A DNA stretch of 60,214 nt from positions 1,540,335-1,600,548 of the forward strand of contig CP070638.1 of NCBI GenBank assembly GCA_020354025.1, read 5' to 3'. A model generated the notes under the pieces. That model was not told the origin of the DNA. It ran no database searches and saw only the letters and a program-made list of their open reading frames with translations. Positions 1,924-20,366 of this stretch are shown here, piece after piece. This stretch comes from Fidelibacterota bacterium (GTDB lineage: Bacteria; Fidelibacterota; Marinisomatia; SCGC-AAA003-L08; TS1B11). Made by a program: the position numbers and the translations under genes. Within the stretch, counting starts at the first letter, position 1. Each line of letters begins with the position of its first letter.

Positions 1924-2119
1924 TGAAGATCGATTGGGGAGAGAGAAAGTGAGATTGCCACCCATCGACAATCTCAGGTCTGGCTCGCTCGTAATTACAA
2001 GAGGGCATCTGCATCTCCCTACTAGTAACGCCGGAGTACAGCAAATCTATCAAGATGCATTTGTCCCGTACAATGCGGGGGGCGCTGCTGAAGTAGGGAG
2101 ACACTGAAGGAAACAAATC

Positions 2120-2911
2120 ATGCTGCGAGTCCTCGTTCTATCCTTTGTTATTGCTACTCCACTGTTGTCCCAAGACCTACTCATCAATTTAAAAGGGACA
2201 GAGTACCCTGGCCGATTGATCGAGATCAGTGATACCTATGTATATTTTCGATTAGAAGGCCAAACTATTGTGAGTAGGCTTCCCAAGCAGGCAATACTCC
2301 GTGTCATACTGGCTGACGGTCGGGTGGCATACGAGAATGGAAAAATACATCTGGAGATCTTCAGGTCTCAGAGGGATAAGAAGCCGCCCCAGAATAGTGT
2401 GAGAATTGCTGGAGAGCTTTTAGCTGGTGGAGCAGGAGGAGCTATAGGATACTATGGCTACTTAAGATATAGTGGTGAGGGAAATGGAATGAGATATTAT
2501 GCGGCCGCGCTTTATGGATCAACTATCGGTAGCACGATCGGTGTCTTTCTGGTTGGAAATCTAGGTAATGAAACAGGATCACTTGTTTATACTGGAGTAG
2601 GAAGCGCTTGGGGACTGGCAGCAGGGATGGGATTGCTGATGATGTTCAGTATTTTTAGTGAGGGTGCATCCTCTGATGTCAGTAATGCCTTTGAGATAAT
2701 TTCATTCTGGTCTTGCCTCTCCATCGGTGCTACGATAGGATTCAATAAGACCCGCAGATACAAGACCCCTCCCGCTGAAACAGAAACAGGACTCATCAAT
2801 TACCAAGATGGACAGATGAGCTTCGCTGCTCCCATAGTCTATATTCGCCCCAATCCCTTTATCTGGGGTGATATGGTGCAGACCATCGACCTGGCTAGCG
2901 TGAGGTTTTAA
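2120..2911 (+). CDS. Secreted/membrane protein of unknown function, paralog 1
   Basis: 263 residues. A cleavable signal (residues 1-18, ending LLSQ) is followed by a small beta-rich stretch at about 20-85 with the words LIEISD, LEGQTIVSRLP and ILRV.LADGRVAY. A glycine-rich hydrophobic middle with two or three possible membrane passes comes next (GELLAGGAGG, GSTIGSTIGVFLVG, GVGSAWGLAAGMGLLMM). The conserved tail ends IRPNPFIWGDMVQTIDL..VRF. The GAAGGAAA ribosome-binding site lies just upstream. I do not recognise the family. The next gene is its paralog; N- and C-termini are nearly identical while the middle differs, which suggests the ends carry the constrained function. Confidence 0.75.
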   Translation: MLRVLVLSFVIATPLLSQDLLINLKGTEYPGRLIEISDTYVYFRLEGQTIVSRLPKQAILRVILADGRVAYENGKIHLEIFRSQRDKKPPQNSVRIAGELLAGGAGGAIGYYGYLRYSGEGNGMRYYAAALYGSTIGSTIGVFLVGNLGNETGSLVYTGVGSAWGLAAGMGLLMMFSIFSEGASSDVSNAFEIISFWSCLSIGATIGFNKTRRYKTPPAETETGLINYQDGQMSFAAPIVYIRPNPFIWGDMVQTIDLASVRF

Positions 2912-3009
2912 ACAATTGATTTCGGGGTGCCCCAAGCCCATCAAGATGCATTTGTCCTGCAGAATGCGAGAGTGCTACTGAGGTAGAGAGTCGCTGAAGG
3001 AAACAAATC

Positions 3010-3762
3010 ATGCTAAGAATCCTCGTTCTATCCTTTGTTATTGCTACTCCACTGTTGTCCCAAGACCTTCTTATCAATTCTATAGGGACAGAGTACCCAG
3101 GCAAATTGATCGAGATCAGTGATACCCATATATATTTTCTATTAGAAGGCCAGACTATTGTAAGTAGGCTTCCCAAGGATGCAATACTCCGGGTCGTACT
3201 GGCCGATGGTCGGGTAGCGTACGGGGATGCCAAGATAGAACTGGACAGCTTCAGGTCTGAGATTGATAAGAAGCCTCCCCTAGATGGTGTAAGAATAGCT
3301 GGGGAGCTATTAGCTGGTGGAGTAGGAAGCTTTACTGGAGGCGTGGTCGGAGTCTATGGCTTAAATAGCATTATGAATGCCGTGTTGGACAGCGCTTTAA
3401 TGCGCAATACGTGGCTTACGTGGTATGTGCTTGGAGGTGCGATTGGCTGCTCTATCGGTAGTACGCTTGGAGTCTATCTGGTGGGTCATCAAGGCAATGA
3501 GACCGGCTCATTTGGTGCAACACTCCTTGGAGCCGCATTGGGCATATTTCCATTTGGCCCCTTTAGTTCACCCATTGTTGCTACTCTATTCTTTAACCTA
3601 ACCCGCAAATACAAGACTCCTCCTGCTGAACCAGAGACGGGTCTCATCAATATCCAAGAAGGCCAGGTGACACTTGCTACTCCAACAGTCTACATTCGCC
3701 CCAATCCCTTTATCTGGGGTGATATGGTACAAACTATCAACCTGGTCAGCGTGAGGTTTTAA
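3010..3762 (+). CDS. Secreted/membrane protein of unknown function, paralog 2
   Basis: 250 residues, a tandem copy of the preceding gene. The signal peptide is almost identical, the N-terminal block shares LIEISD, LEGQTIVSRLP and LADGRVAY, and the tail ends IRPNPFIWGDMVQTINL..VRF. The middle third has diverged and contains a different set of glycine-rich hydrophobic segments, so the number of membrane passes may differ. The leader, the ribosome-binding site and about 40 bp after the stop match copy 1, so duplication was recent enough for the DNA to be alignable. Function is unknown. A hairpin terminator about 110 bp downstream probably ends the transcript. Confidence 0.75.
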   Translation: MLRILVLSFVIATPLLSQDLLINSIGTEYPGKLIEISDTHIYFLLEGQTIVSRLPKDAILRVVLADGRVAYGDAKIELDSFRSEIDKKPPLDGVRIAGELLAGGVGSFTGGVVGVYGLNSIMNAVLDSALMRNTWLTWYVLGGAIGCSIGSTLGVYLVGHQGNETGSFGATLLGAALGIFPFGPFSSPIVATLFFNLTRKYKTPPAEPETGLINIQEGQVTLATPTVYIRPNPFIWGDMVQTINLVSVRF

Positions 3763-7507: not shown

Positions 7508-7714
7508 GAAACTACATATAGAAAAACGGGCATCCGGGAGAGGTGCTACCCTAATAGTAACATAAAAGTCATTGAGGCCGATTCTGGTCGTGAAAATCGT
7601 TTCAGTCAGAGATTAGCATGGATAAATTTGATATAAATTGATAACAGACAATCTCTTTTTCAAAGAAAGCGTGGATTTGTTCTGCTATTATCAATAGATA
7701 TATAGGTATTGCCT

Positions 7715-9628
7715 ATGAAACTTACCTTCCGGTCCAAGCTAGTTTTAAGTTTTTTAGTAGTTGTTCTATTCACCGGCTTTATTGGTACGCTGGTTGGTGA
7801 AAGATTGATTAGCGGTGGTATCATACAACAGGCTCAGGAGAAGGTACGGGTTGATCTAAATTCTGCAAGAGAAATATATCAAAGCCAATTGGACCAGGTA
7901 AAAGATGTTGTCCGTTTTACGGCAGATAGATTTTTCATAAATAGCAGCCTTTTAAGTAAAGAAATAGAGTTGAATAAAGATGAATTGAAGAATATTAGAG
8001 CAAGAGAAAATTTGGATATTTTTACAGTATCCGATAAAAATGGGAATGTTATTTTCAGAACCAGGAATCCCACCGTTTTTGGAGACAGCCAAGCCCAGGA
8101 CGAGGTCGTAAGCTTCGTTATTTCAAAAAATGAAATTATTGCATCAACTGTAATCATTTCACGCGAAGAGTTGCTGAAAGAAGGGGACGATCTTGCTGAA
8201 AGGGCTCATATCAATATTATACATACTCCGAGAGCAAAGCCCAGACCGGAAAGTGAAGAGCTGTCCGGGATGATGATAAAGGCAGCAGCCCCTATTCTTA
8301 ATCACGACGGGAATCTGCTGGGAGTATTATATGGTGGGAGGTTGCTGAACAGGAACTATGACATTGTTGATAAGGTGAAGGAAACCGTATATCAAGGTCA
8401 GGTGTACGAAGGGAAAGACATCGGTACAGCGACTATTTTTCAAGGTGATTTACGCATCTCCACCAATGTAAAGAGAGAGGATGGCAGCCGAGCCATAGGA
8501 ACGCGAGTATCCGAAGAAGTATATGATCAAGTTTTAGTTAAAGGATTACCGTGGATCGAGAGGGCGTTTGTGGTGAATGACTGGTATTATACCGCTTATG
8601 AACCAATAAAGAATATCCGTGGAGATATTATTGGCATCCTTTACGTGGGCATCCTTGAAGAAAAATTTGTTGATCTGAGATGGAGAACGCTTTGGTTATT
8701 CTTAGGTATCACTTTTGTCGGAATTATTATCGCAGCCACCATCTCATATTTCCTGGCCAGCCGGGTGGTGCAGCCCATTAAGCACCTAGTCCTGGCATCT
8801 AAAAGAATTGCGGGGGGAGACCTCGGCCACAGAGTAAGACTCAAGGCGAAGGATGAAATCCGTGATTTAGGTGATGCATTCAATTTTATGGCCGCCTCGC
8901 TTAATGAGAGGGATGAGCAGCTCAAAGAGCAAGCCACGCAGACCATCATGAAGTCTGAAAGGCTGGCAACCATCGGACAACTTGCAGCAGGCGTAGCACA
9001 TGAAATCAACAATCCGCTAGGAGGGATTCTGTCATATAGCCATCTTGTACTGGAAGATACCGATACAGAAGACCCCAGGAAGCAAAATTTAGAAAAAATT
9101 GTTATTCAGGCTACCAGGTGTAGAGAGATAGTGAAAGGTTTATTAGACTTTGCCCGGCAGACTGAACCTGAGATGAGTTTGGGAGATATCAACGATATGC
9201 TCAGAGAAGCGTTGGCACTGGTTGAAAAACAGGCTCAGTTCCACAACATAGAAGTAATAAAACATATAGACCCCAATCCTATTCAGGTAATGGTGGACCC
9301 TTCCCAGATCCAGCAGGTACTTATTAATATAATAATGAACGCTGCTGAGTCCATGGCAGGAAGAGGTGAATTAGTATTAGAGACAAAGAAAACCGATGGG
9401 GATCAGGCTCTGGTAAAGATCACTGATACAGGTACAGGCATCCCGGAAGATAATATAGAAAAACTCTTTGATCCTTTCTTTACGACCAAAGAGGTCGGTA
9501 GTGGAACGGGGCTAGGACTTGCCGTCAGCTATGGAATAGTAGAGCGGCACAAGGGATCCATTGAAGTGAGCAGTGAAGTAGGTCTAGGAACAACTTTCAT
9601 CATAAGCCTGCCTTTGTATAAGGGATAG
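7715..9628 (+). CDS. Membrane sensor histidine kinase with Cache-type periplasmic domain
   Basis: 637 residues from the ATG at 7715; a TTG two codons earlier also fits. Order: membrane helix (about 10-30), a large periplasmic Cache-like region (about 35-320), second helix ([19 protein letters not shown]), HAMP (QPIKHL to AASLNE), HisKA with [11 protein letters not shown] (phospho-accepting His) and HATPase_c with N, G1 and G2 boxes ([24 protein letters not shown]). NtrB-like kinases of this form phosphorylate NtrC-type activators, and such an activator starts 7 bp downstream. The input signal is unknown; a small anion or carboxylate is typical for Cache domains. Confidence 0.9.
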
Positions 9629-9634
9629 AACTAA

Positions 9635-10984
9635 ATGGCTGTCTCACCGAATATTCTGGTCATCGATGACGATGAATCCATACGTGATTCCTGTCAGCAG
9701 ACGCTTTCAAGGGATGGTTGTTTGGTGGAGACCGCAGGAGAAGGGAAGGAGGGCCTGCGGCGAATAAAAGAGGAATCATTTGACGTCATTATTCTTGATC
9801 TGAAGATGCCGGGATTGAGTGGGGTAGAGGTATTAGAAAGAATAAAGGAGAATAATCCTGAAACTATCGTGATTATTATTACCGGATATCCTTCTGTGGA
9901 ATCTGCTGTTCAAACGATGAAGATGGGAGCTTACGATTACCTGTCTAAGCCTTTTACGCCAGACGAGTTGCGGATAGTTATGAGGCGGGCATTAGAAAAG
10001 AAAAGTTTAGCGTTTGAAAATATCTATTTAAAACGTGAGCATGAGGAGGAACTTGAGAAGGATCTTATCGGTCAGAGCGGCAACATGCGAAAGGTTGTCC
10101 AGCTGGCAAAGAAAGTCGGACCTACAGACAGCACCGTTTTAGTCAGCGGAGAGAGCGGCACCGGGAAGGAACTAATTGCCAAGGTGATTCGCAACTACAG
10201 TAACCGGAGGGATAAACCCTTCATAACGGTAGATTGTGGTTCTCTGGTAGAGAGTCTTTTTGAGAGCGAGTTATTCGGGCATGTGAAGGGTTCTTTCACG
10301 GGTGCTACGGCCACCAAGCACGGACGATTTGAATTGGCCAACGGCGGAACCATCTTCTTCGATGAGATCGGGAATATCAGCACCAACATTCAAGCCAAAC
10401 TTCTCAGAGCTATCCAGGAAGGAGAAATCTGCAAAGTAGGGAGTTCCCAGGTTATACGGGTAGATGTTCGAATTATAGCTGCCACAAACCAGGATCCAGT
10501 GAAATTGGTTGAAGAAGGTCACTTTAGGGAGGACTTGTTCTACCGTTTAAGCGTAGTGCCGATTCACCTGCCCCCTTTGCGCGAAAGGCCGGAAGATATC
10601 CCCATATTGGCTGGACACTTTCTGAAAACCTACAGCCAAAAGCGGAAAAAGAATGTACGGGACATATCGGGGGAGGCCATGAAGGCACTCGTTAAATACA
10701 GCTGGCCAGGCAATGTTCGAGAGTTGGAGAATGCCATTGAACGGGCTGTGGTTTTGACAGAGAGAGACATAATCCAACCCGTTGATCTTTTATACTATGG
10801 TCTGGCTGCTACTAAGGAGAGTTCCGCGAGGATGGAACAGCCAAAACGTCTGGAGGAGATGGAGAAGGAGCATATCTTATGGACTCTTGAGCTGAATCAT
10901 GGCCACCGGTCCAAGTCAGCCCGATCATTAGGGATAGACCGCAAAACCCTCTGGATGAAGATGAAGAAGTATGGCATAGAATAA
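9635..10984 (+). CDS. NtrC-family sigma-54-dependent response regulator
   Basis: 449 residues. Receiver domain (1-120) with D11/D12, phospho-acceptor D55 and K105. The AAA+ domain (about 145-385) has Walker A GESGTGKE (172-179), Walker B FFDEIG and the sigma-54 contact loop, written GSFTGA (219-224) instead of GAFTGA. The C-terminal Fis-type helix-turn-helix (about 410-449) ends RKTLWMKMKKYGIE. It forms a pair with the kinase 7 bp upstream. By analogy with HupR/HoxA it may activate the hydrogenase operon, but no sigma-54 promoter is obvious directly before hydB; the best candidate lies at 11236. Confidence 0.93.
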   Translation: MAVSPNILVIDDDESIRDSCQQTLSRDGCLVETAGEGKEGLRRIKEESFDVIILDLKMPGLSGVEVLERIKENNPETIVIIITGYPSVESAVQTMKMGAYDYLSKPFTPDELRIVMRRALEKKSLAFENIYLKREHEEELEKDLIGQSGNMRKVVQLAKKVGPTDSTVLVSGESGTGKELIAKVIRNYSNRRDKPFITVDCGSLVESLFESELFGHVKGSFTGATATKHGRFELANGGTIFFDEIGNISTNIQAKLLRAIQEGEICKVGSSQVIRVDVRIIAATNQDPVKLVEEGHFREDLFYRLSVVPIHLPPLRERPEDIPILAGHFLKTYSQKRKKNVRDISGEAMKALVKYSWPGNVRELENAIERAVVLTERDIIQPVDLLYYGLAATKESSARMEQPKRLEEMEKEHILWTLELNHGHRSKSARSLGIDRKTLWMKMKKYGIE

Positions 10985-11200
10985 TATCAATTCGACTCTC
11001 CTCCAGTGTGGGATGATAAAGCTGCCGAATGATTTCAGATTATAGTACCTCGAAATGGGTCCATAAACCTAATCAGGGAATATTGCTAATTTGGGGAAAA
11101 ATGCCTCATAATCGGGGCACGATGCCCCTTAGAAACCATCCTAAAAGCGGAGCACTGATAGTAACACATCAGTAGATAGATACAAAATTACTTGATAATA

Positions 11201-11232
11201 AACCACTTGGAAATATGTCTGAGTGGTTTTTT
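11201..11232 (+). terminator. Terminator after the kinase/activator pair
   Basis: AACCACT (11201) pairs with AGTGGTT (11222), followed by TTTT. It separates the kinase-activator pair from the next transcription unit. Confidence 0.75.
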
Positions 11233-11235
11233 ATC

Positions 11236-11250
11236 TGGCATAAGATTTGT
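11236..11250 (+). promoter_or_regulatory. Candidate sigma-54 promoter (-24/-12)
   Basis: TGGCAT-AAGAT-TTGT against the consensus TGGCAC-N5-TTGC: spacing is exact and two positions differ. The GC of the -12 box is GT here, which weakens it. It lies about 38 bp upstream of the double-receiver gene and immediately after the terminator, in the element that encodes an NtrC-type activator. Transcription from here could run through the regulators into hydBGDA. Confidence 0.35.
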
Positions 11251-11287
11251 GATTGAAAATATTGAAACCTAGGGGTCGTAGTTCTAG

Positions 11288-12085
11288 ATGACAGGTAAAA
11301 AAAGAATCCTAATTGTTGATCCTGACAGCGAGACAGTGCAAGAGTATTGCTTGCTTCTTACCGATGAGGGGTACGATGTAGATATCTGCCAGAAGGTTTC
11401 AAATGCAGTTGGAAAAATTGAGAGTGCGAAGTTCGATTGTGTCATAATAGACGTTGACCTTGAAGACATGAGAGGTTATAACGCAGTTGATATTGTCAAG
11501 ATAATCGATCCGCAGATAGATGTGATATTGACTGCGAGGGCAAATACAAAAGAACTGGAGGCCAAGGTACGAGCCCAAGACATTTTCTATTATTATATAA
11601 AATCATTCAAGGGGGAGGAGCTATTAATGGCAGTCAATAACCTGTTTAGAAAAGGAATTGAGGGAATCGATATGCAAGGAAACAATCAACATTCCAAGAT
11701 CCTGGTGATCGACGATGATCATGATTTCCTGGATTCGATGAAGATAATCCTAGAGTCAGCTTCATACAGATTTGTATCAGCCGACGATCCCAAGGAAGGG
11801 ATGGAGATGATCAAATCGGAGAATCCGGATTTAATCCTGCTTGACATCATGATGGATAGTCTTTTTGATGGTTTTTCTATGTGTCACACTCTTAAGACAT
11901 CAAGAGAGTATCGGACATACCATGATATACCTATCATTTTCGTTTCAGCGGTGAAGGAGGTGGCTGGTTCTCGCTTTGCCTTTGATCCCGGTTCCCAGGG
12001 GATGGTAGGTCCAAACGACTACATCGACAAACCAGTTGAGCCTAATGATTTACTGGCACGCATCGAGAAGCTTCTTGGACAATGA
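11288..12085 (+). CDS. Double receiver-domain response regulator without output domain
   Basis: 265 residues made of two CheY-like domains (about 5-120 and 137-265). The first has D-P-D at the acidic pocket, phospho-acceptor D in IIDVDLED, T in ILTARA and K in YYIKSFK. The second has IDDDHD, LLDIMMD, FVSAVKE and YIDKPVEP. Both look phosphorylation-competent. No DNA-binding or enzymatic domain follows, so it probably relays or sinks phosphate, or works through protein contacts. No good ribosome-binding site is visible. It lies between an NtrB/NtrC pair and a receiver-kinase, so it probably connects them. Confidence 0.85.
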   Translation: MTGKKRILIVDPDSETVQEYCLLLTDEGYDVDICQKVSNAVGKIESAKFDCVIIDVDLEDMRGYNAVDIVKIIDPQIDVILTARANTKELEAKVRAQDIFYYYIKSFKGEELLMAVNNLFRKGIEGIDMQGNNQHSKILVIDDDHDFLDSMKIILESASYRFVSADDPKEGMEMIKSENPDLILLDIMMDSLFDGFSMCHTLKTSREYRTYHDIPIIFVSAVKEVAGSRFAFDPGSQGMVGPNDYIDKPVEPNDLLARIEKLLGQ

Positions 12086-12199
12086 TCCGGCGAACCATAA
12101 CAACGAGGACTGACCTAAAATTCCAGGGATTCTCGAATAGGTGCTAGCCCGGAACTATACGCCCCCACCGCCAGCCATTCGAAATTAGTAATGTGAATC

Positions 12200-13330
12200 A
12201 TGGAAAATGCGGAACCCACTATCCTTGTTATTGATGATGAAGAGGCAATCCGGGACTCATGCTCTCAAATACTTACCAAGGAAGGCCTGTGCGCCGTCAC
12301 AGCCGAAGACGGTATGATCGGCTTGGAAAAAGTAAGGAAAATGAAGCCCGATCTGGCGATTGTTGACTTGAAGATGCCTGGGCTTGACGGATTTGAGTTA
12401 CTGGATGAAATCAGGGAGATCGATCCTGAGCTGATCGCGATTGTTATCACTGGCTATCCAAATATTGAATCGGCGGTCGAAGCCATGAAACTAGGGGCCT
12501 ATGATTTTTTACCCAAACCCTTTGCTCCGGATGAACTCCGGATCATTGTGCGTAGGGGGCTGGAGAAAAGGAGACTATCCCTTGAGTCAGCCGACCTTCG
12601 CCGGGAAAAGAAGCGGATAAAGGAACACTTTATTACTCTGGTAACCCATGAACTGCGCTCTCCGCTGGCAACGATTCATCAATATTGTGATACAATCCTC
12701 GGAGGTTCCGTTGGTGAAGTAAAACCAAAACAGGAGGAAATTCTTAAAATATGCAAAGAGCGCATTAAGGAACTACTGAAACTAGTAGACGACTGGTTAA
12801 ATGTATCACGGATTGAAACTGGCGAAATTGTAGACAATTTGAAGCCGGTAAACCTGGCTACACTCCTGATGGATGTTGCCAACACTCTACAAAGCTATGC
12901 AGAGATGAAGGGAATTGCGATCCACGTTGACTCTATCAATGGTCTTCCTCTCGTGTTAGGAAATGCAGAAACGTTAGAGCTAGCATTCACAAACCTGATC
13001 AGTAATGGTATAAAATTCAATGTGGAGGGAGGGAAAATTGAAATATCCTCAGAAGTGGATGAGAAGTATGTGATTGTGGATGTGGCTGACACAGGCATCG
13101 GTATCCCCGCAGACAAACTACCTTTTATCTTCGATGAGTTCTATCGGGTGAAGAATAAAGCGACCAGGAATATCACGGGCAGCGGACTGGGGCTATCTTT
13201 TGTACACAAAATCATCGAAGCCCACGCCGGGAGAATCCAGGCTATCAGTGAAGAAGGCCGGGGAAGCATGTTTAAAGTCTCTTTGCCCAGGATATCGCAG
13301 AATAGAGTAGATGGCCATCATAACGATTAA
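12200..13330 (+). CDS. Soluble receiver-histidine kinase hybrid
   Basis: 376 residues. The N-terminal receiver (1-120) has phospho-acceptor D56 and is closely similar to the receiver of the NtrC-type activator upstream (shared DLKMPGL, ITGYP, ES.V..MK.GAYD, KPF.PDELRI). HisKA follows with THELRSPLATIH (H150), then HATPase_c with NLISNGIKFN, DTGIGIP and GSGLGLS. There is no membrane segment. A receiver placed before a kinase usually gates kinase activity, so this is likely an internal relay of the same circuit. It ends 67 bp before hydB, a good place for hydrogenase control. Confidence 0.88.
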   Translation: MENAEPTILVIDDEEAIRDSCSQILTKEGLCAVTAEDGMIGLEKVRKMKPDLAIVDLKMPGLDGFELLDEIREIDPELIAIVITGYPNIESAVEAMKLGAYDFLPKPFAPDELRIIVRRGLEKRRLSLESADLRREKKRIKEHFITLVTHELRSPLATIHQYCDTILGGSVGEVKPKQEEILKICKERIKELLKLVDDWLNVSRIETGEIVDNLKPVNLATLLMDVANTLQSYAEMKGIAIHVDSINGLPLVLGNAETLELAFTNLISNGIKFNVEGGKIEISSEVDEKYVIVDVADTGIGIPADKLPFIFDEFYRVKNKATRNITGSGLGLSFVHKIIEAHAGRIQAISEEGRGSMFKVSLPRISQNRVDGHHND

Positions 13331-13397: not shown

Positions 13398-14438
13398 ATG
13401 CTCTTTAAAATATTAAGCAAGGAAGAGTTTAGGAATTTTATTGACTTTCTACTGAAAGATACGGAGGTCATCGCCCCCAAACAAATCAACGTTAATGCTG
13501 ATGGCAAAGCAATATATCAGTTCCTGCCAGTTCAGAATTTCGAGGAAATCAGACTCGATTATGAAACGACAGACTACTCGGCTAAAACATATTTCCTCCC
13601 CTACAAGGAGGATCTATCCTCTTGCTCCTTCTTGGGGACGATATGGGACCGTGAGATTAAGTACCGGATTCAGCCCAGAGCAATCGTTGGACTCCATGCC
13701 TGTGATATAAACGCCCTATTGAAACTGGATAAAGTTCTGGCCGGGGATCGTTTTCCCAGCCCCTACTACATTTCACGCAGAAAAAATACCTTTATCGTAG
13801 GAATTGACCACGATCCGTGTGAAGGCGGCTTCTGCCAATCTGTGGGGGCTGACGTCGTCACCCACGGCTTCGATTTATACCTCACCGATCTGGGTGACCG
13901 TTATTTTGCGGCAATCAACTCCAATAGGGGGTTCAACGCGCTCCAGCAGGTTAAAACCAGGGAGCCTACGGCTCGGGATAACAACGACTATTTGGAGGTA
14001 CGTCGGCGAATCGCTAGCCAGTTTAAGCCCCTTGAAGTCCATAACCTGCCCAATCTGATGGACATCGAGTTCGAATCGAAAGTCTGGAAGAAATGGGCCG
14101 ATAAATGCATGAGCTGCGGCAGCTGCGCCATGGTCTGTCCCACTTGTTACTGCTACGGGGTTGAAGAACGAATCACCATGAACAACGCGAAAAGCGCCAA
14201 GATCAAGCAGCTCTACTCGTGCCAGTTCCTCGATTTCGCTACGGTGGCGGGTGGACTTAACTTCCGACCTGACCGCGAGACCCGGTTGAAATATCGCTAC
14301 TACCACCAGCACCGGGGATTCGTGGAGGCCTACGAAGAGCCCCTCTGTGTGGGCTGCTATCGTTGCGGCCGGGTCTGCCTAGCTGACATCAATCCTCCCG
14401 ACATCATCCAAGATCTGCAAACGGAGTACCAGGAATGA
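13398..14438 (+). CDS. hydB: [NiFe]-hydrogenase (sulfhydrogenase) beta subunit, iron-sulfur protein
   Basis: 346 residues, the usual length. Two C-terminal 4Fe-4S motifs are visible: [11 protein letters not shown] (C237, C240, C243, C247) and [11 protein letters not shown] (C317, C320, C323, C327). The N-terminal 220 residues carry [11 protein letters not shown] and [10 protein letters not shown], as in HydB/AsrA-type proteins. It passes electrons between the flavin subunit and the hydrogenase small subunit in soluble group 3b enzymes. It is first in the order B-G-D-A, the arrangement known from Pyrococcus sulfhydrogenase. Its stop overlaps the hydG start (ATGA), so translation is coupled. 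Confidence 0.92.
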
Positions 14439-15343
14439 CTAACCTGTTTCACCCCTACTACATTACCCAGGAAGCCGAGATGACGCAGCCTCTGGACTAT
14501 AACCGGAGAAGCCGACTAAAACATGTGGATCAGGTTTTCCGAAGCGAGATCATTAATGTTATCCCTCTCACTGATATGGAGAAGCTCTTTCAGCTGCGAA
14601 TCCTGGACGAAGCCGAGCGGGAGCGCTTTTCCTTTCTTCCCGGCCAGTTTGTTATGGTCGAAGTGCCTGGCTACGGTGAAATTCCCATTTCCATCTCCAG
14701 TTCCCCATCCCACAAGGGCTATATCGAGCTGTGTATCCGCAAGGCGGGCGTGGTTACCAGCATCCTACATAAGGCCAATCGAGGTGCAGTGGTTGGCCTC
14801 CGCGGACCCTTCGGCACCCATTTCCCCATCGAAAAGATGCGCAGGAACAATATCCTGCTTATCGCTGGCGGGCTCGGGCTGGCACCGCTCCGGGCACCCA
14901 TTTTAAACGTTATAGAAAACCGGACCGATTTTAAGGATGTACATATCCTCTACGGTACTCGGCAGTCGGACATGCTACTGTTCAGCTACCAGTACGAGGA
15001 GTGGAATCGGATCGCCGACATAAACTTGAGGGTCATTGTGGAGCAGGCCGATCCGACCTGGACTGGTTCGGTAGGTCTAATAACCGACTTGCTAAAGGAA
15101 ATGCGGATCGAGCCGATGCAGACCTATGCCATCATCTGCGGTCCACCGGTCATGTTTAAGTTCGTCTGCGCCCACCTACAGCAAGAGGGCATCCCGATGG
15201 ACCGTATGTTCGTATCCCTTGAACGACGAATGCACTGTGGTATGGGTAAATGTTGCCGGTGCAATATCGGGTCCACCTATACCTGCTTATCAGGACCAGT
15301 ATTCGACTATTGGACCGTCATGAACCTTAAAGAAGCGATCTGA
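14435..15343 (+). CDS. hydG: [NiFe]-hydrogenase (sulfhydrogenase) gamma subunit, FAD/NAD(P)H oxidoreductase
   Basis: 302 residues of the ferredoxin-NADP reductase superfamily. The FAD-binding sheet has PISISSSP (84-91), the nucleotide-binding domain has GGLGLAPLR (145-153) and CGPPVM (235-240), and a C-terminal 2Fe-2S site is formed by C268, C273/C274, C276 and C284. In group 3b hydrogenases this subunit exchanges hydride with NAD(P)H. Whether NADH or NADPH is used is not clear from sequence. An in-frame ATG at 14480 is an alternative start, but 14435 overlaps the hydB stop and fits the operon. Confidence 0.92.
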
Positions 15344-15353
15344 TTCCGCTGTT

Positions 15354-16106
15354 ATGAAGTACCTTGGCATCAAACCCAAGAGACCGAAAATCGCAGTATT
15401 CGATTTCACAGGGTGTGAAGGATGTGAGCTGCAGCTGGTCAACAAAGAGGAGACCGTCATAGATTTCCTGGGCTCCGTTGATGTAATCAACTTCCGCGAG
15501 ATCAGCTCGACCATTAGTAATGACTTCGAGGTGGCTTTCATTGAAGGGGCCATCACGAGGGACGACGAAATCAACCGTCTTAACGAGATCCGCGAACAGG
15601 CCAAGGTGCTCATCGCGCTCGGCAGCTGCGCCTGTTTCGGCGGCGTGAACCGGCTTAAGAACGCCTATGATTTCAAGAAAGCCAATCAGGAGGTCTACGG
15701 CAAACAGCATAAGGAAACCCTTCCGGCGCGGGCAGTGAAGGAGATCATAGCGGTGGACCTGCAAATTCCCGGCTGCCCAGTAGATAAACCAGAGGTCGAG
15801 CGGATCGTCCAACACCTAGTCTGGGATGTCCCCTACCAGTTTCCTGCCTACCCGGTGTGTTTCGAATGCAAGCAGCAGTACACCACCTGCGTATTCGAGC
15901 TAGGGCAGCTCTGTTTGGGGCCAGTTACCCAAGGTGGATGCCGCGCCCCTTGCCCAGTGGGTGGCAGTGGTTGCTGGGGCTGCCGTGGACCCGCCGCTGA
16001 TCCTCACCTGAAGGAATTCCTCCAGATAGCCGACGAGCGGGAGTTCAGTCGGAAGGAGATCAACGAGCGCCTCAGCTTCTACAGCGGCTTCGAGGGGATG
16101 CTATGA
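15354..16106 (+). CDS. hydD: [NiFe]-hydrogenase small (delta) subunit
   Basis: 250 residues. The proximal-cluster ligands are in place: TGCEGCELQL (C21, C24), GSCACFGG (C92) and PGCPVDKPE (C141). The C-terminal half is rich in cysteine (C169, C172, C179, C187, C196, C200, C207, C210), enough for two more clusters as in the group 3 delta subunits. There is no Tat signal, so the enzyme is cytoplasmic. It starts 10 bp after hydG and overlaps the hydA start by 4 bp. Confidence 0.92.
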   Translation: MKYLGIKPKRPKIAVFDFTGCEGCELQLVNKEETVIDFLGSVDVINFREISSTISNDFEVAFIEGAITRDDEINRLNEIREQAKVLIALGSCACFGGVNRLKNAYDFKKANQEVYGKQHKETLPARAVKEIIAVDLQIPGCPVDKPEVERIVQHLVWDVPYQFPAYPVCFECKQQYTTCVFELGQLCLGPVTQGGCRAPCPVGGSGCWGCRGPAADPHLKEFLQIADEREFSRKEINERLSFYSGFEGML

Positions 16107-17371
16107 AAACGGACCTGAATGTAGATGTGCATCACCTCACCCGGATTGAGGGGCACGGGAATATCGAAGTACAAATCAAGGACGGGAAGATTCAGGAAGC
16201 CCGCTGGGACGTGGTGGAGACTCCCCGCTATTTCGAGGTCATGCTCAAGGGCAAGCATTTTAGCAGTGCTGGATTTCTCACCGCCCGTATATGCGGCATC
16301 TGTTCTTTTGGTCACTGCCTGGCCAGTTTGCGCGCCACTGAGCAAGCATTCGGCATTACTATTACTGACAAGGCAACCAAACTACGTCTCTTAGCCAAGC
16401 ACGGCGAGACACTCCAGAGCCACATTCTGCACCTGTTTTTCCTGGCGGCACCTGACTTCCTGGAAGTACCCAGCGCCATTCCATTGATTGAAAGCCATCC
16501 TGATGCGGTGGCGATGGCTCTCCGCCTAAAGAGTCTTGGTAATCGCATCTGTGAGGTGGTCGGCGGACGGGCTACCCATCCGGTCTCACTGCTAGTTGGA
16601 GGTGTGGCTAGGTCACCGGACGAACTGCCTGGTCTCAGGGATGAGCTCGAAAACGCTCTGGTCGACTTGGGAGCCGCAACCGAGCTGGTTCGCACATTCG
16701 AGATTCCAGACTTTCACCGTGAGACTGAATACGTATCACTGAAGGGGGAGGATCAGTATCCGTTCATCGGGGGGCGGTTGGTCTCTTCAGATGGGATCGA
16801 AAAGGCTGAGCAGGAGTATGCCGCCATGACTAACGAGTATGTGGACCAGCGTAACACTTCCAAGTGGTGCAAGCTCTCCCGGGAATCATTTGCGGTAGGG
16901 GCTCTGGCGCGATTCAACAATAACTATCATCTACTCCACCCCCAGGCTCTCGAGACAGCATCAACTCTCGGACTGGATCCGGTATGTCACAATCCCTTCA
17001 TGAATAACATTGCACAACTGGTGGAATGTGTTCATATAGTCAATGATTCCATTCAGCTTATTGATGCATTAATGGAGTCGGACTCTGAACTGACCATGGT
17101 GCCAGTCACTCCGCAGGCGGGTGAGGGTGTGGGCGCGGTGGAAGTACCGCGCGGTATCCTGTACCATCATTATAATTATAATAAGGACGGCTATATCGTG
17201 AAGGCCAATTGCGTGATTCCCACGACGCAGAACAACGCTAACATCCACCACGCTCTGAATGACCTTGTGACCAAGTACGCTGAAGAAGGTATGAAAAGCG
17301 ACCGGCTGGAACTCTTATGCTCGATGCTGGTGAGATCATATGATCCCTGCATATCATGCTCTGTACATTGA
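16103..17371 (+). CDS. hydA: [NiFe]-hydrogenase large (alpha) subunit, naturally without a C-terminal extension
   Basis: 422 residues. The two nickel-binding motifs are complete: RICGICSFGH (62-71) and DPCISCSVH (414-422). RIEGHG (14-19) is the usual N-terminal motif. The enzyme reversibly oxidises hydrogen with the NAD(P) subunit. The stop codon follows directly after H422. Most large subunits carry about 5-30 further residues that a specific endopeptidase removes after nickel insertion, so this protein appears to need no such cleavage. No hyp maturation genes are in the window, so cofactor assembly must be encoded elsewhere. It is the last gene of the operon. Confidence 0.94.
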   Translation: MKTDLNVDVHHLTRIEGHGNIEVQIKDGKIQEARWDVVETPRYFEVMLKGKHFSSAGFLTARICGICSFGHCLASLRATEQAFGITITDKATKLRLLAKHGETLQSHILHLFFLAAPDFLEVPSAIPLIESHPDAVAMALRLKSLGNRICEVVGGRATHPVSLLVGGVARSPDELPGLRDELENALVDLGAATELVRTFEIPDFHRETEYVSLKGEDQYPFIGGRLVSSDGIEKAEQEYAAMTNEYVDQRNTSKWCKLSRESFAVGALARFNNNYHLLHPQALETASTLGLDPVCHNPFMNNIAQLVECVHIVNDSIQLIDALMESDSELTMVPVTPQAGEGVGAVEVPRGILYHHYNYNKDGYIVKANCVIPTTQNNANIHHALNDLVTKYAEEGMKSDRLELLCSMLVRSYDPCISCSVH

Positions 17372-18094: not shown

Positions 18095-18300
18095 TTAATC
18101 CCTATCCAATAAATCTACGTAGTATCGTTCAGTTGTTTTCACACTTGCATGTCCAAGTAGTTTGGAGACTCGATACAAGTCAGTTTTCTCATTTTGTAAG
18201 AGCGTACTCCCAAACGTCTTTCGAAGACTATGCAGATCCGCCCCTTTAATTCCTCCAGCATTATTTTTATCAGCGGACGATTTTAATTCCACCCAGAAAT
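18095..18300 (-). pseudogene. Tyrosine recombinase (integrase), C-terminal catalytic remnant
   Basis: About 65 residues match the end of phage-type integrases. HSLRKT carries the catalytic H and R, LLGHAS the second H, and TTERYY the nucleophilic Tyr. The N-terminal arm-binding and core-binding domains and the first catalytic Arg are missing. The open frame runs upstream to 18346, but there it overlaps the 3' end of the TonB receptor gene and loses similarity, so the break is near 18270-18300. It lies just inside the left attachment core of element 2, where an integrase is expected. Confidence 0.75.
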
Positions 18301-20366
18301 GAAAGACCATATCCAGCCAGAGTTTTACCGTCTTCATATATAGCAAATTTCTGGTCTGTCAGGTTCTCTAACCGGATGAACAGGGAAATTCCAGTCGCGA
18401 TTTTCCTGTTCAGACCCAGGTTCACCAGCGTGTAGTCTCGTAACCTGTCTACCTCTCCCTCGGTATTCATAAAATATCGCTGCCGCGCATCCTCCATAGA
18501 CAACATGACCTGCAGTTTCAGGTATTTATTATAGTGATACAGCCGTAGCACGGTTAAATGCCGCGGTGAATAGGCGAGCGGCTCACCTTCATCATCACGC
18601 GTCTCGGCATAGGTATAGTCAAGATGTATTCTGGTGGCTCCCCAAAGTACCTGGAACCCAATCTCAAAACCCATTGCCCGAGCCTCCTTCAGGTTCTCAC
18701 GGCGAAAGATAGGTTTCCCATTCAGACTATCCCCGGTGCTGATAGCCATGATCATATTCGTGAACTCATTTCGATAACCGGTTACCCTGCCAACAAGGTG
18801 ATCGGTGAATTTGTACTCGATACCCACATTCGAACTGGTCGTGAACTCCGGCTTTAAACCTGGATTCCCATCACGGTAGTAGGTCTTATGGTCAAACTTC
18901 TCTTCATACAAGTCTTGGAGGGAGGGTGCCCGAAATCCTTCACCGATGGAGGCTCGTAGGTTGGTCTGCTCAGTCAGTTTGTAGAGAATCCCTAATTTGG
19001 GTGACAGTTCCGTGGCTACATCCGGATGATGATCGACTCGTAGCGCAATGATCGGATTGAAAATCCTGGTGTTCCACAACTCGTCGCTGAGAAAAGCACT
19101 GAATATCGTATTGCGCATTTGAGGCATTGAGGTTCGACTGAACTGCTCCTTGCGAACTTCAAAACCGGTAATAATGGAATGGATCGTGCTGGATTGCCAC
19201 TCGAAGGTGGCATCTGCTTTCACAGTACGATTATCATCGTTTCGATATTCGCCTTGAAAGTGTGAATAGCTGATTCCGGTCTTGACAGTGGAATTGTCAT
19301 ACAACTTCTTCCGGAAATGCAGGTGAATGTCGATCCAGGAATCAGTCACTTTCGGCCTGGATGTAGATCGCAGGTAGTGATTACGGTAGAAACGGGTATC
19401 GATGGTCACCAGTTCAGATTCCGTTGCCTGGTAGGCCACTTTGGACATGATGTTCGATTGATCGAAATCAAAGCGGATACCGTTGGCGTCAGGTACCCCA
19501 TCGCTATGGCAATGATTCGCATTAAGATAGAAGCCGACTTTGTTGATCGAATTCCCGTAGTGAAGGTTAATATGTTGCGTGTTGTACTTGCCGATCGATA
19601 GTTCGGTGCCCCAGGTTAGCGCTGCCGGTATCGGTTTGGTGATAATATTAATCACGCCGCCAAAAGCCTCACTGCCGTATAGCGCAGAAGAAGGGCCTTT
19701 CACGACTTCAACACGCTCGATCATGCCCACTGGTATGAGGTTGATATTTGTCCCTGTATGTATGTGTTCGCTTTTGGCTCTCTCTCCGTCGATCATGACC
19801 ATACTATATTGCGCGGGCAGACCGTGAATCAAGGGAGTAAACCGTCGGGCGGCTCCGTTTGGGGCTCCTCCCGAAATGTTCACCCCCGGGATCCAGCGTA
19901 TAACATCTGTAAGGGTCTGAACACCCAGCCCACGGAACTCGCTGCTGGTGACCAGGTGGGTTTCCAGTGGTACATCTGCTAAAGCATGGGCACTACGTGT
20001 AGCGGTTACCACGACTTCAGTCCCTTTGAGAATCGTAGGCTCCAAGGCGATTTCAATCTGCTTGATCATGTCAGCGGTGGCAGTCAGGTCGTGAATGACA
20101 ACTTGTCGATATCCTATATGACTGATTGCGAGATCGTACTGCCCGGGCTCCAGATTTTCCAGGATGAAACACCCGTCTTTAGCCGTTGTGGCACCGAGAT
20201 TAGTGCCCTGCACGGAGATATTTACAGCCGCTAACATTTCACCCGTGATCTTATCATATACATAACCTCGAATCGAATGAGTGTTGGCCACAACGTATGA
20301 CGGAAGTATGGTTATGATTGTAACCAGGAGAGTAAGGAAATATTGATGGGATCTTCGATTGCTCAC
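18270..20366 (-). CDS. TonB-dependent outer-membrane receptor with carboxypeptidase-regulatory N-terminal domain
   Basis: 698 residues. Signal peptide (about 1-27), CarboxypepD_reg-like beta-sandwich (30-115: IRGYVYDKITGEMLAAVNIS, LEPGQYDLAISHIGY), plug domain (about 120-235 with VVVTATRS, VIRWIPGVNISGG, VEVVKGPSSALYGSEAFGG) and a 22-strand-type barrel to the end. It imports a large ligand across the outer membrane using TonB energy; ligand unknown. It resembles the receptor at 44.9 kb but has no HmuY-like partner. It is the only intact gene of element 2. Its 3' end abuts the integrase remnant. Confidence 0.9.
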   Translation of the reverse strand: MSNRRSHQYFLTLLVTIITILPSYVVANTHSIRGYVYDKITGEMLAAVNISVQGTNLGATTAKDGCFILENLEPGQYDLAISHIGYRQVVIHDLTATADMIKQIEIALEPTILKGTEVVVTATRSAHALADVPLETHLVTSSEFRGLGVQTLTDVIRWIPGVNISGGAPNGAARRFTPLIHGLPAQYSMVMIDGERAKSEHIHTGTNINLIPVGMIERVEVVKGPSSALYGSEAFGGVINIITKPIPAALTWGTELSIGKYNTQHINLHYGNSINKVGFYLNANHCHSDGVPDANGIRFDFDQSNIMSKVAYQATESELVTIDTRFYRNHYLRSTSRPKVTDSWIDIHLHFRKKLYDNSTVKTGISYSHFQGEYRNDDNRTVKADATFEWQSSTIHSIITGFEVRKEQFSRTSMPQMRNTIFSAFLSDELWNTRIFNPIIALRVDHHPDVATELSPKLGILYKLTEQTNLRASIGEGFRAPSLQDLYEEKFDHKTYYRDGNPGLKPEFTTSSNVGIEYKFTDHLVGRVTGYRNEFTNMIMAISTGDSLNGKPIFRRENLKEARAMGFEIGFQVLWGATRIHLDYTYAETRDDEGEPLAYSPRHLTVLRLYHYNKYLKLQVMLSMEDARQRYFMNTEGEVDRLRDYTLVNLGLNRKIATGISLFIRLENLTDQKFAIYEDGKTLAGYGLSFLGGIKIVR

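Follow-up and report, generated by a model that had tools for sequence, protein, structure and literature searches.

A clade of group 3b [NiFe]-hydrogenases encoded without a C-terminal tail, found in a Fidelibacterota genome, has probably dispensed with its maturation endopeptidase

The window analysed here is a stretch of 60,214 nucleotides from a Fidelibacterota bacterium, and it contains no runs of N (no assembly gaps). It carries a hydrogenase operon, hydB-hydG-hydD-hydA, on the forward strand. The first gene, hydB (13398-14438), encodes an Fe-S subunit (PF17179; best NCBIfam match NF040829, ShyB), followed by hydG (14435-15343) for the FAD/NAD(P)-binding subunit (PF00175, PF00970, PF10418) and hydD (15354-16106) for the small subunit (PF01058; best NCBIfam match NF040831, ShyD). 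The last gene, hydA (16103-17371), encodes the large subunit (PF00374); its best NCBIfam matches were NF040828 and NF040832 (ShyA/HydA), with scores under the equivalog cut-offs, and its best PDB match was the alpha subunit of Pyrococcus furiosus SHI. The hydA gene is an unbroken reading frame of 422 codons, and the 422-residue protein ends in ...LVRSYDPCISCSVH (YDPCISCSVH), with the TGA stop codon (17369-17371) immediately after H422, where relatives have a tail of 4-13 residues. Two motifs hold the Ni/Fe ligands: the L1 motif RICGIC (residues 62-67; 16286-16303), with C64 and C67, and the L2 motif DPCISCSVH (residues 414-422; 17342-17368), with C416 and C419, which ends in the terminal H422.

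Upstream of hydB, four genes on the same strand make up a kinase/regulator set at 7706-13330, comprising a sensor kinase, an NtrC-type regulator and two further response regulators. They encode an sCache sensor histidine kinase (7706-9628; PF17202, PF00512, PF02518), an NtrC-type sigma-54 response regulator (9635-10984; PF00158, PF00072, PF02954), a response-regulator-like protein (11288-12085) and a response regulator-histidine kinase hybrid (12200-13330; PF00072, PF00512, PF02518). In the related genome L009, the hybrid also lies beside the operon and the order of the response-regulator-like gene is conserved. A comparable set adjoins hypDE or hypFCDE in Desulfobacterota genomes (L150, L154), which suggests that these genes form a common hydrogenase regulation module.

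By sequence, operon and tree, HydA is assigned to group 3b and not to group 2b, 2d, 4c, 4e or 4g. It has the RxCGxC and DPCxxCxxH motifs with all four cysteine ligands, the window has the four-gene layout of large, small, FAD/NAD(P) and Fe-S subunits, and HydA adjoins tailed 3b enzymes in the tree, besides its best matches to ShyA/HydA and SHI. P. furiosus SHI and Thermococcus kodakarensis HyhL share the HydBGDA four-subunit organisation and the ligand motifs with the window enzyme and are its best PDB matches by sequence and fold. Chlorobiaceae proteins termed group 3b (HyhL) in the sections considered here of a survey of Chlorobia (PMC8125076) fall in the same clade as HydA. A usual, though not defining, trait of group 3b is a C-terminal tail cut by a HycI-type protease, and this tail is absent from HydA.

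We then compared the C-terminus of HydA with that of SHI alpha, its best solved relative. The two proteins aligned end to end, and the alignment stopped at the same histidine. The SHI alpha precursor has 428 residues and runs four residues past this histidine; these residues (VVRL) are cut off by the protease FrxA (PMC2865534), whereas the window clade has none. H422 is thus the position of the processed C-terminus in relatives, which bears out the claim of an earlier note on this DNA that HydA is encoded already in mature form. A second 3b copy in the same genome is likewise tail-less and stops at the same residue.

A scan of GTDB genomes with HydA yielded 80 loci. The results showed that all 67 full-length homologues at or above about 54% identity lack the tail. 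They come from Chlorobiaceae, Thermodesulfobacteriota, one Nitrospirota MAG and one Fidelibacterota family (one MAG among the homologues), indicating that the tail-less end is a stable trait of a whole 3b branch in at least four bacterial phyla. The stop codon was TGA in 49 of these genes, TAG in 10 and TAA in 8, and visual inspection of 18 sequences revealed no in-frame remnant of a tail 3' of the stop. That a normally tailed gene was cut short by a sequencing error or a recent nonsense mutation has next to no probability, because independently assembled homologues end at the same residue, between them using all three stop codons, the genome's other copy ends alike and tail remnants are absent; the homologues ruled this explanation out. 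The earlier note had named tailed close homologues with a recent TGA as the finding that would overturn its reading, and none appeared down to about 54% identity. Recoding of TGA (e.g. as selenocysteine), with translation running on into a tail, would fit the prevalence of TGA in the clade, but 18 members end in TAA or TAG and the frame past the stop is not conserved. Selenocysteine read-through was ruled out by the TAA and TAG members, and the chance of any such recoding is negligible.

More distant homologues (47-51% identity; Bathyarchaeota, Thermoplasmatota, Balneolota) are tailed, with ends such as CVKVHFV and FLNVEWKR. Among 45 tailed 3b sequences the tail measured 7-13 residues, with a hydrophobic, alternating, strand-like consensus (e.g. 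MLEVDFIE), and every neighbouring 3b lineage tested was tailed. The nearest relatives are tailed bacterial 3b enzymes of Fidelibacterota, Balneolota and Thermodesulfobacteriota (44-51% identity), which have the same active-site residues and differ by their tail of 7-13 residues; those of Fidelibacterota and Balneolota also have a HycI gene that overlaps or abuts hydA. In a maximum-likelihood tree built after the tails had been trimmed, the tail-less sequences occupied one side of a single branch (bootstrap/SH-aLRT 99/96), a split present in 99% of the bootstrap trees. One state change was again obtained when a sample of Thermodesulfobacteriota was included in a larger, quickly computed tree (SH-aLRT 100). 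The tree itself is unrooted; since SHI has a tail, as do more distant 3b enzymes of the same phylum, loss is the simpler direction. The absent tail had been linked to this particular operon as a mobile cassette; the absence stands, and with 67 of 67 homologues sharing it, the trait is an old property of the clade. A Nitrospirota MAG also encodes a distant group 3-like large subunit (L171, 3945-5303, minus strand) whose tail of 17 residues (LVVPEETKTEKPPHGVR) is unusual.

To follow the protease gene, we searched the loci with a HycI profile derived from 27 members of the family encoded in these genomes. Of 31 tailed loci in Fidelibacterota and Balneolota, 30 have a same-strand HycI-family reading frame that overlaps hydA or follows it by no more than about 60 bp, and the 31st ends 48 bp past the stop, too short to judge. 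By comparison, a same-strand adjacent protease was found in 0 of 67 tail-less loci, whose downstream flank spans several kb in most and only about 0.5 kb in a few. In one tail-less locus (L012) a protease lay 1.3 kb away on the opposite strand, beside another hydrogenase. Within Thermodesulfobacteriota, the protease was adjacent in 0 of 5 tail-less and 12 of 20 tailed loci. At archaeal tailed loci it was never adjacent, yet it was encoded elsewhere in the genome. Adjacency alone is therefore not diagnostic of need, given these archaeal loci and the 8 of 20 tailed Thermodesulfobacteriota loci without a neighbouring protease. The loci compared are related, and for that reason a Fisher test on adjacency was set aside. 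From the gene content of these loci, we conclude that the tail and the operon's protease gene were lost together.

At the level of whole genomes, a PF01750 protease was present in 77 of 86 Chlorobiaceae genomes. A strong profile match to the group 1 (Hup) large subunit was found in 76 of the 77 protease-positive genomes and in none of the 9 protease-negative ones; the exception (G331) had weak group 1 matches only. Three Hup-only genomes with one strong large-subunit match and nothing else (G299, G300, G311) have kept the protease, and three 3b-only genomes with verified tail-less ends (G310, G322, G335) have none. Of the latter, G310 and G322 encode hypD, while G335 gave no hypD match despite its tail-less 3b enzyme. 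Six Chlorobiaceae genomes have no hydrogenase, and hypD is absent from five of them and reduced to a 47-codon fragment in the sixth. This distribution indicates that the protease tracks the tailed enzyme, and that the Hyp proteins are retained for the tail-less one alone. The combination of hypD, no HycI and exclusively tail-less large subunits recurs in three Thermodesulfobacteriota genomes (G008, G012, G013), whose large subunits are 3b and, in two of them, also a group 4-like protein ending in DPCISCTER. Five genomes in total (G008, G012, G013, G310, G322) thus combine hypD, tail-less enzymes only and no HycI. Individual loci also have hypC, hypE and hypF beside hypD. Many of the genomes are MAGs, in which single absences are weak, and the overall pattern is the evidence. 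In the same protease-free Desulfobacterota genomes, the group 4-like large subunits with DPCISCTER at the stop (L149, 4373-5446; L155, 8119-9285) are, judging from their sequences, a second tail-less hydrogenase.

The genome that contains the window encodes HypE, HypA, HypF and HypD together near C1:3.25 Mb and a HycI homologue at C1:971045. The earlier note had named absence of the protease from the genome as support for its idea; the protease is present in the window's own genome and absent from the five genomes with hypD and only tail-less enzymes. The HycI gene comes just after the gene for another, long-tailed large subunit, which is broken by a 100-N assembly gap (L008, 8158-8257) of the kind used to scaffold the single chromosome contig. 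The HycI homologue in this genome and in most clade genomes could be taken as a nickel-dependent chaperone that serves the tail-less subunit without cutting it. We consider this role very unlikely: nearly all of these HycI genes sit beside different, tailed hydrogenases, the five genomes above have hypD and tail-less enzymes with no HycI match, and Escherichia coli HybD showed no interaction with a tail-less HybC variant (PMC6769069).

Residues R62, C64, C67 and H71, as well as D414, P415, C416, C419 and H422, were invariant across 67 tail-less and 40 tailed homologues. Fixed differences between the two sets occurred only at sites 59, 96, 220 and 222 (tail-less/tailed: L/I, L/K, P/A and I/Y). 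For near pairs of tail-less genes, dN/dS was about 0.07-0.1 (0.027/0.31 for L013/L014; 0.018/0.26 for L045/L063), and the window hydA differed from that of L009 with a pN of 0.12 and a pS of 0.73. These results indicate that tail-less hydA is under strong purifying selection. The tail-less protein might still be a non-hydrogenase paralogue, with another redox role or a role as an assembly scaffold, that needs no nickel-checking cleavage. Large subunits have known scaffold relatives in HoxV/HupK (PMC12134894), the sections considered of PMC8125076 call the role of group 3b in Chlorobia unclear, and we found no reports of activity, metal content or processing for the clade members examined. Against such a role, the four cysteine ligands, the L1 arginine and the terminal histidine do not vary among 67 sequences, the intact tail-less loci compared all have the full hydBGDA operon, and hypD (with hypC, hypE and hypF in individual loci) is retained where the sole large subunit is tail-less. 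We regard it as improbable.

To place the window operon within its phylum, we compared it with the vertical 3b enzyme of Fidelibacterota, which is tailed and about 49% identical to the window HydA. The window's 3b family grouped with Thermodesulfobacteriota and Nitrospirota, and a single Fidelibacterota 3b clade was rejected (AU test, p = 7.5e-7). In the part compared, the window and L009 share a block that starts with the sensor kinase (7706) and ends with hydA (17368); beyond hydA their flanks are different, and on the upstream side the L009 locus is truncated. A C-terminal fragment of a tyrosine recombinase (integrase) lies 0.7 kb downstream of hydA (18095-18346, minus strand; PF00589) and is a possible remnant of a transfer event. 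The phylogenetic placement suggests that the window 3b operon was most likely acquired by horizontal transfer. The idea of a mobile hydrogenase cassette is thereby supported as an ancient cross-phylum transfer with an integrase fragment nearby, but not as an active mobile element. The genome's other tail-less 3b operon (L007, 3184-7441; G000:C1:1.425-1.429 Mb) lies directly upstream of an rnf cluster in which RnfC and two Rnf-Nqr membrane subunits were identified, which suggests that it couples NAD(P)H/H2 to Rnf.

Taken together, it is highly likely that this 3b clade lost the tail and the HycI-type endopeptidase once, long ago, that its enzymes are portable and matured by the Hyp proteins without proteolysis, and that the operon was horizontally acquired here. 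Within this reading, we infer H2 activity, Hyp-dependent cofactor insertion, intrinsic proofreading and portability as an advantage. The C-terminus that tailed relatives gain only by cleavage would be present in HydA from translation on, and HypABCDEF would build and insert NiFe(CN)2CO with no final proteolytic step. Quality control would presumably be intrinsic and not depend on nickel-gated cleavage, with the small subunit rejecting empty large subunits, an idea proposed for tail-less regulatory hydrogenases. The tail of those 3b enzymes that have one keeps the N-terminus aside, which allows HypA to deliver nickel, and cleavage then closes the site (Kwon et al. 2018, cited in PMC7294309); in T. 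kodakarensis HyhL it displaces the N-terminus for HypA docking (PMC7294309). Artificial removal of the tail gave nickel-free enzyme in Ralstonia eutropha SH (group 3d) and E. coli Hyd-2 (PMC7294309), so tail loss cannot be presumed harmless, and R. eutropha MBH tolerated such removal (PMC7294309). Natural tail-less sensors load nickel normally, which the authors credit to intrinsic proofreading (PMC7294309). By analogy, the window clade most likely works like these sensors, with Hyp insertion, no cleavage and intrinsic proofreading. AlphaFold models of the tail-less protein compared by Foldseek gave TM values of 0.88-0.90 to mature SHI and 0.78-0.84 to immature HyhL; a tailed control gave the same pattern, and the comparison was dropped as a test of the open versus closed state.

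Among the maturation factors, the protease is the one that is hydrogenase-specific, so a tail-less enzyme would be able to work in any Hyp-bearing host. Such host-independence would fit the spread of the clade over several phyla and the transfer into this Fidelibacterota family. The earlier note had proposed freedom from a matching protease in each host; we infer this independence from comparative genomics and from the finding that the P. furiosus 3b enzyme made in E. coli required only FrxA to be added (PMC2865534). A more tentative extension, which we hold as possible but somewhat doubtful, is that the clade evolved another nickel check (e.g. in the small subunit or the N-terminus) and that protease independence aided its moves between phyla.

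Extension-less hydrogenases are already known. The natural tail-less groups are 2b, 2d, 4c, 4e and 4g in one account (PMC7294309) and 2b, 2d, 4c and 4e in a Metallomics review (PMC12134894), and neither includes any member of group 3. The earlier note's statement that a tail-less form was unexpected in group 3b agrees with both lists. In the H2-sensing (2b, 2d), CooH (4c), Ech (4e) and 4g enzymes the large subunit likewise ends at the last L2 residue, and these enzymes use the Hyp machinery without a protease (PMC7294309, PMC12134894). HydA, whose gene stops after L2, lies outside these phylogenetic groups, and tail-less 3b is an additional loss inside a group otherwise tailed in the lineages examined. 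The open-access literature yielded no earlier report of a tail-less group 3b enzyme (subscription reviews lay outside its scope), and the considered sections of PMC8125076 make no mention of the missing tail in Chlorobia. As far as we found, the tail-less form in group 3 is apparently new, with the loss of the adjacent protease traceable alongside it.

Most [NiFe]-hydrogenases depend on a tail and a dedicated protease and some do without, and PMC7294309 asks that tolerance of tail absence be examined in further large subunits. The clade offers a natural control within one group, as close relatives with and without the tail have the same subunits and include cultured members (Chlorobaculum, Chlorobium). 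The structural model of the tail and HypA derives from group 3b itself (T. kodakarensis HyhL), so that the clade tests this model directly. The published bottleneck for producing 3b hydrogenase in E. coli was the matching protease (PMC2865534), and a tail-less 3b enzyme might be made there from its four structural genes only.

Elsewhere in the window, at 2108-3759, two tandem reading frames have nearly identical N-termini (RKQIMLR.LVLSFVIATPLLSQDLLIN), and they are likely the result of a recent duplication.
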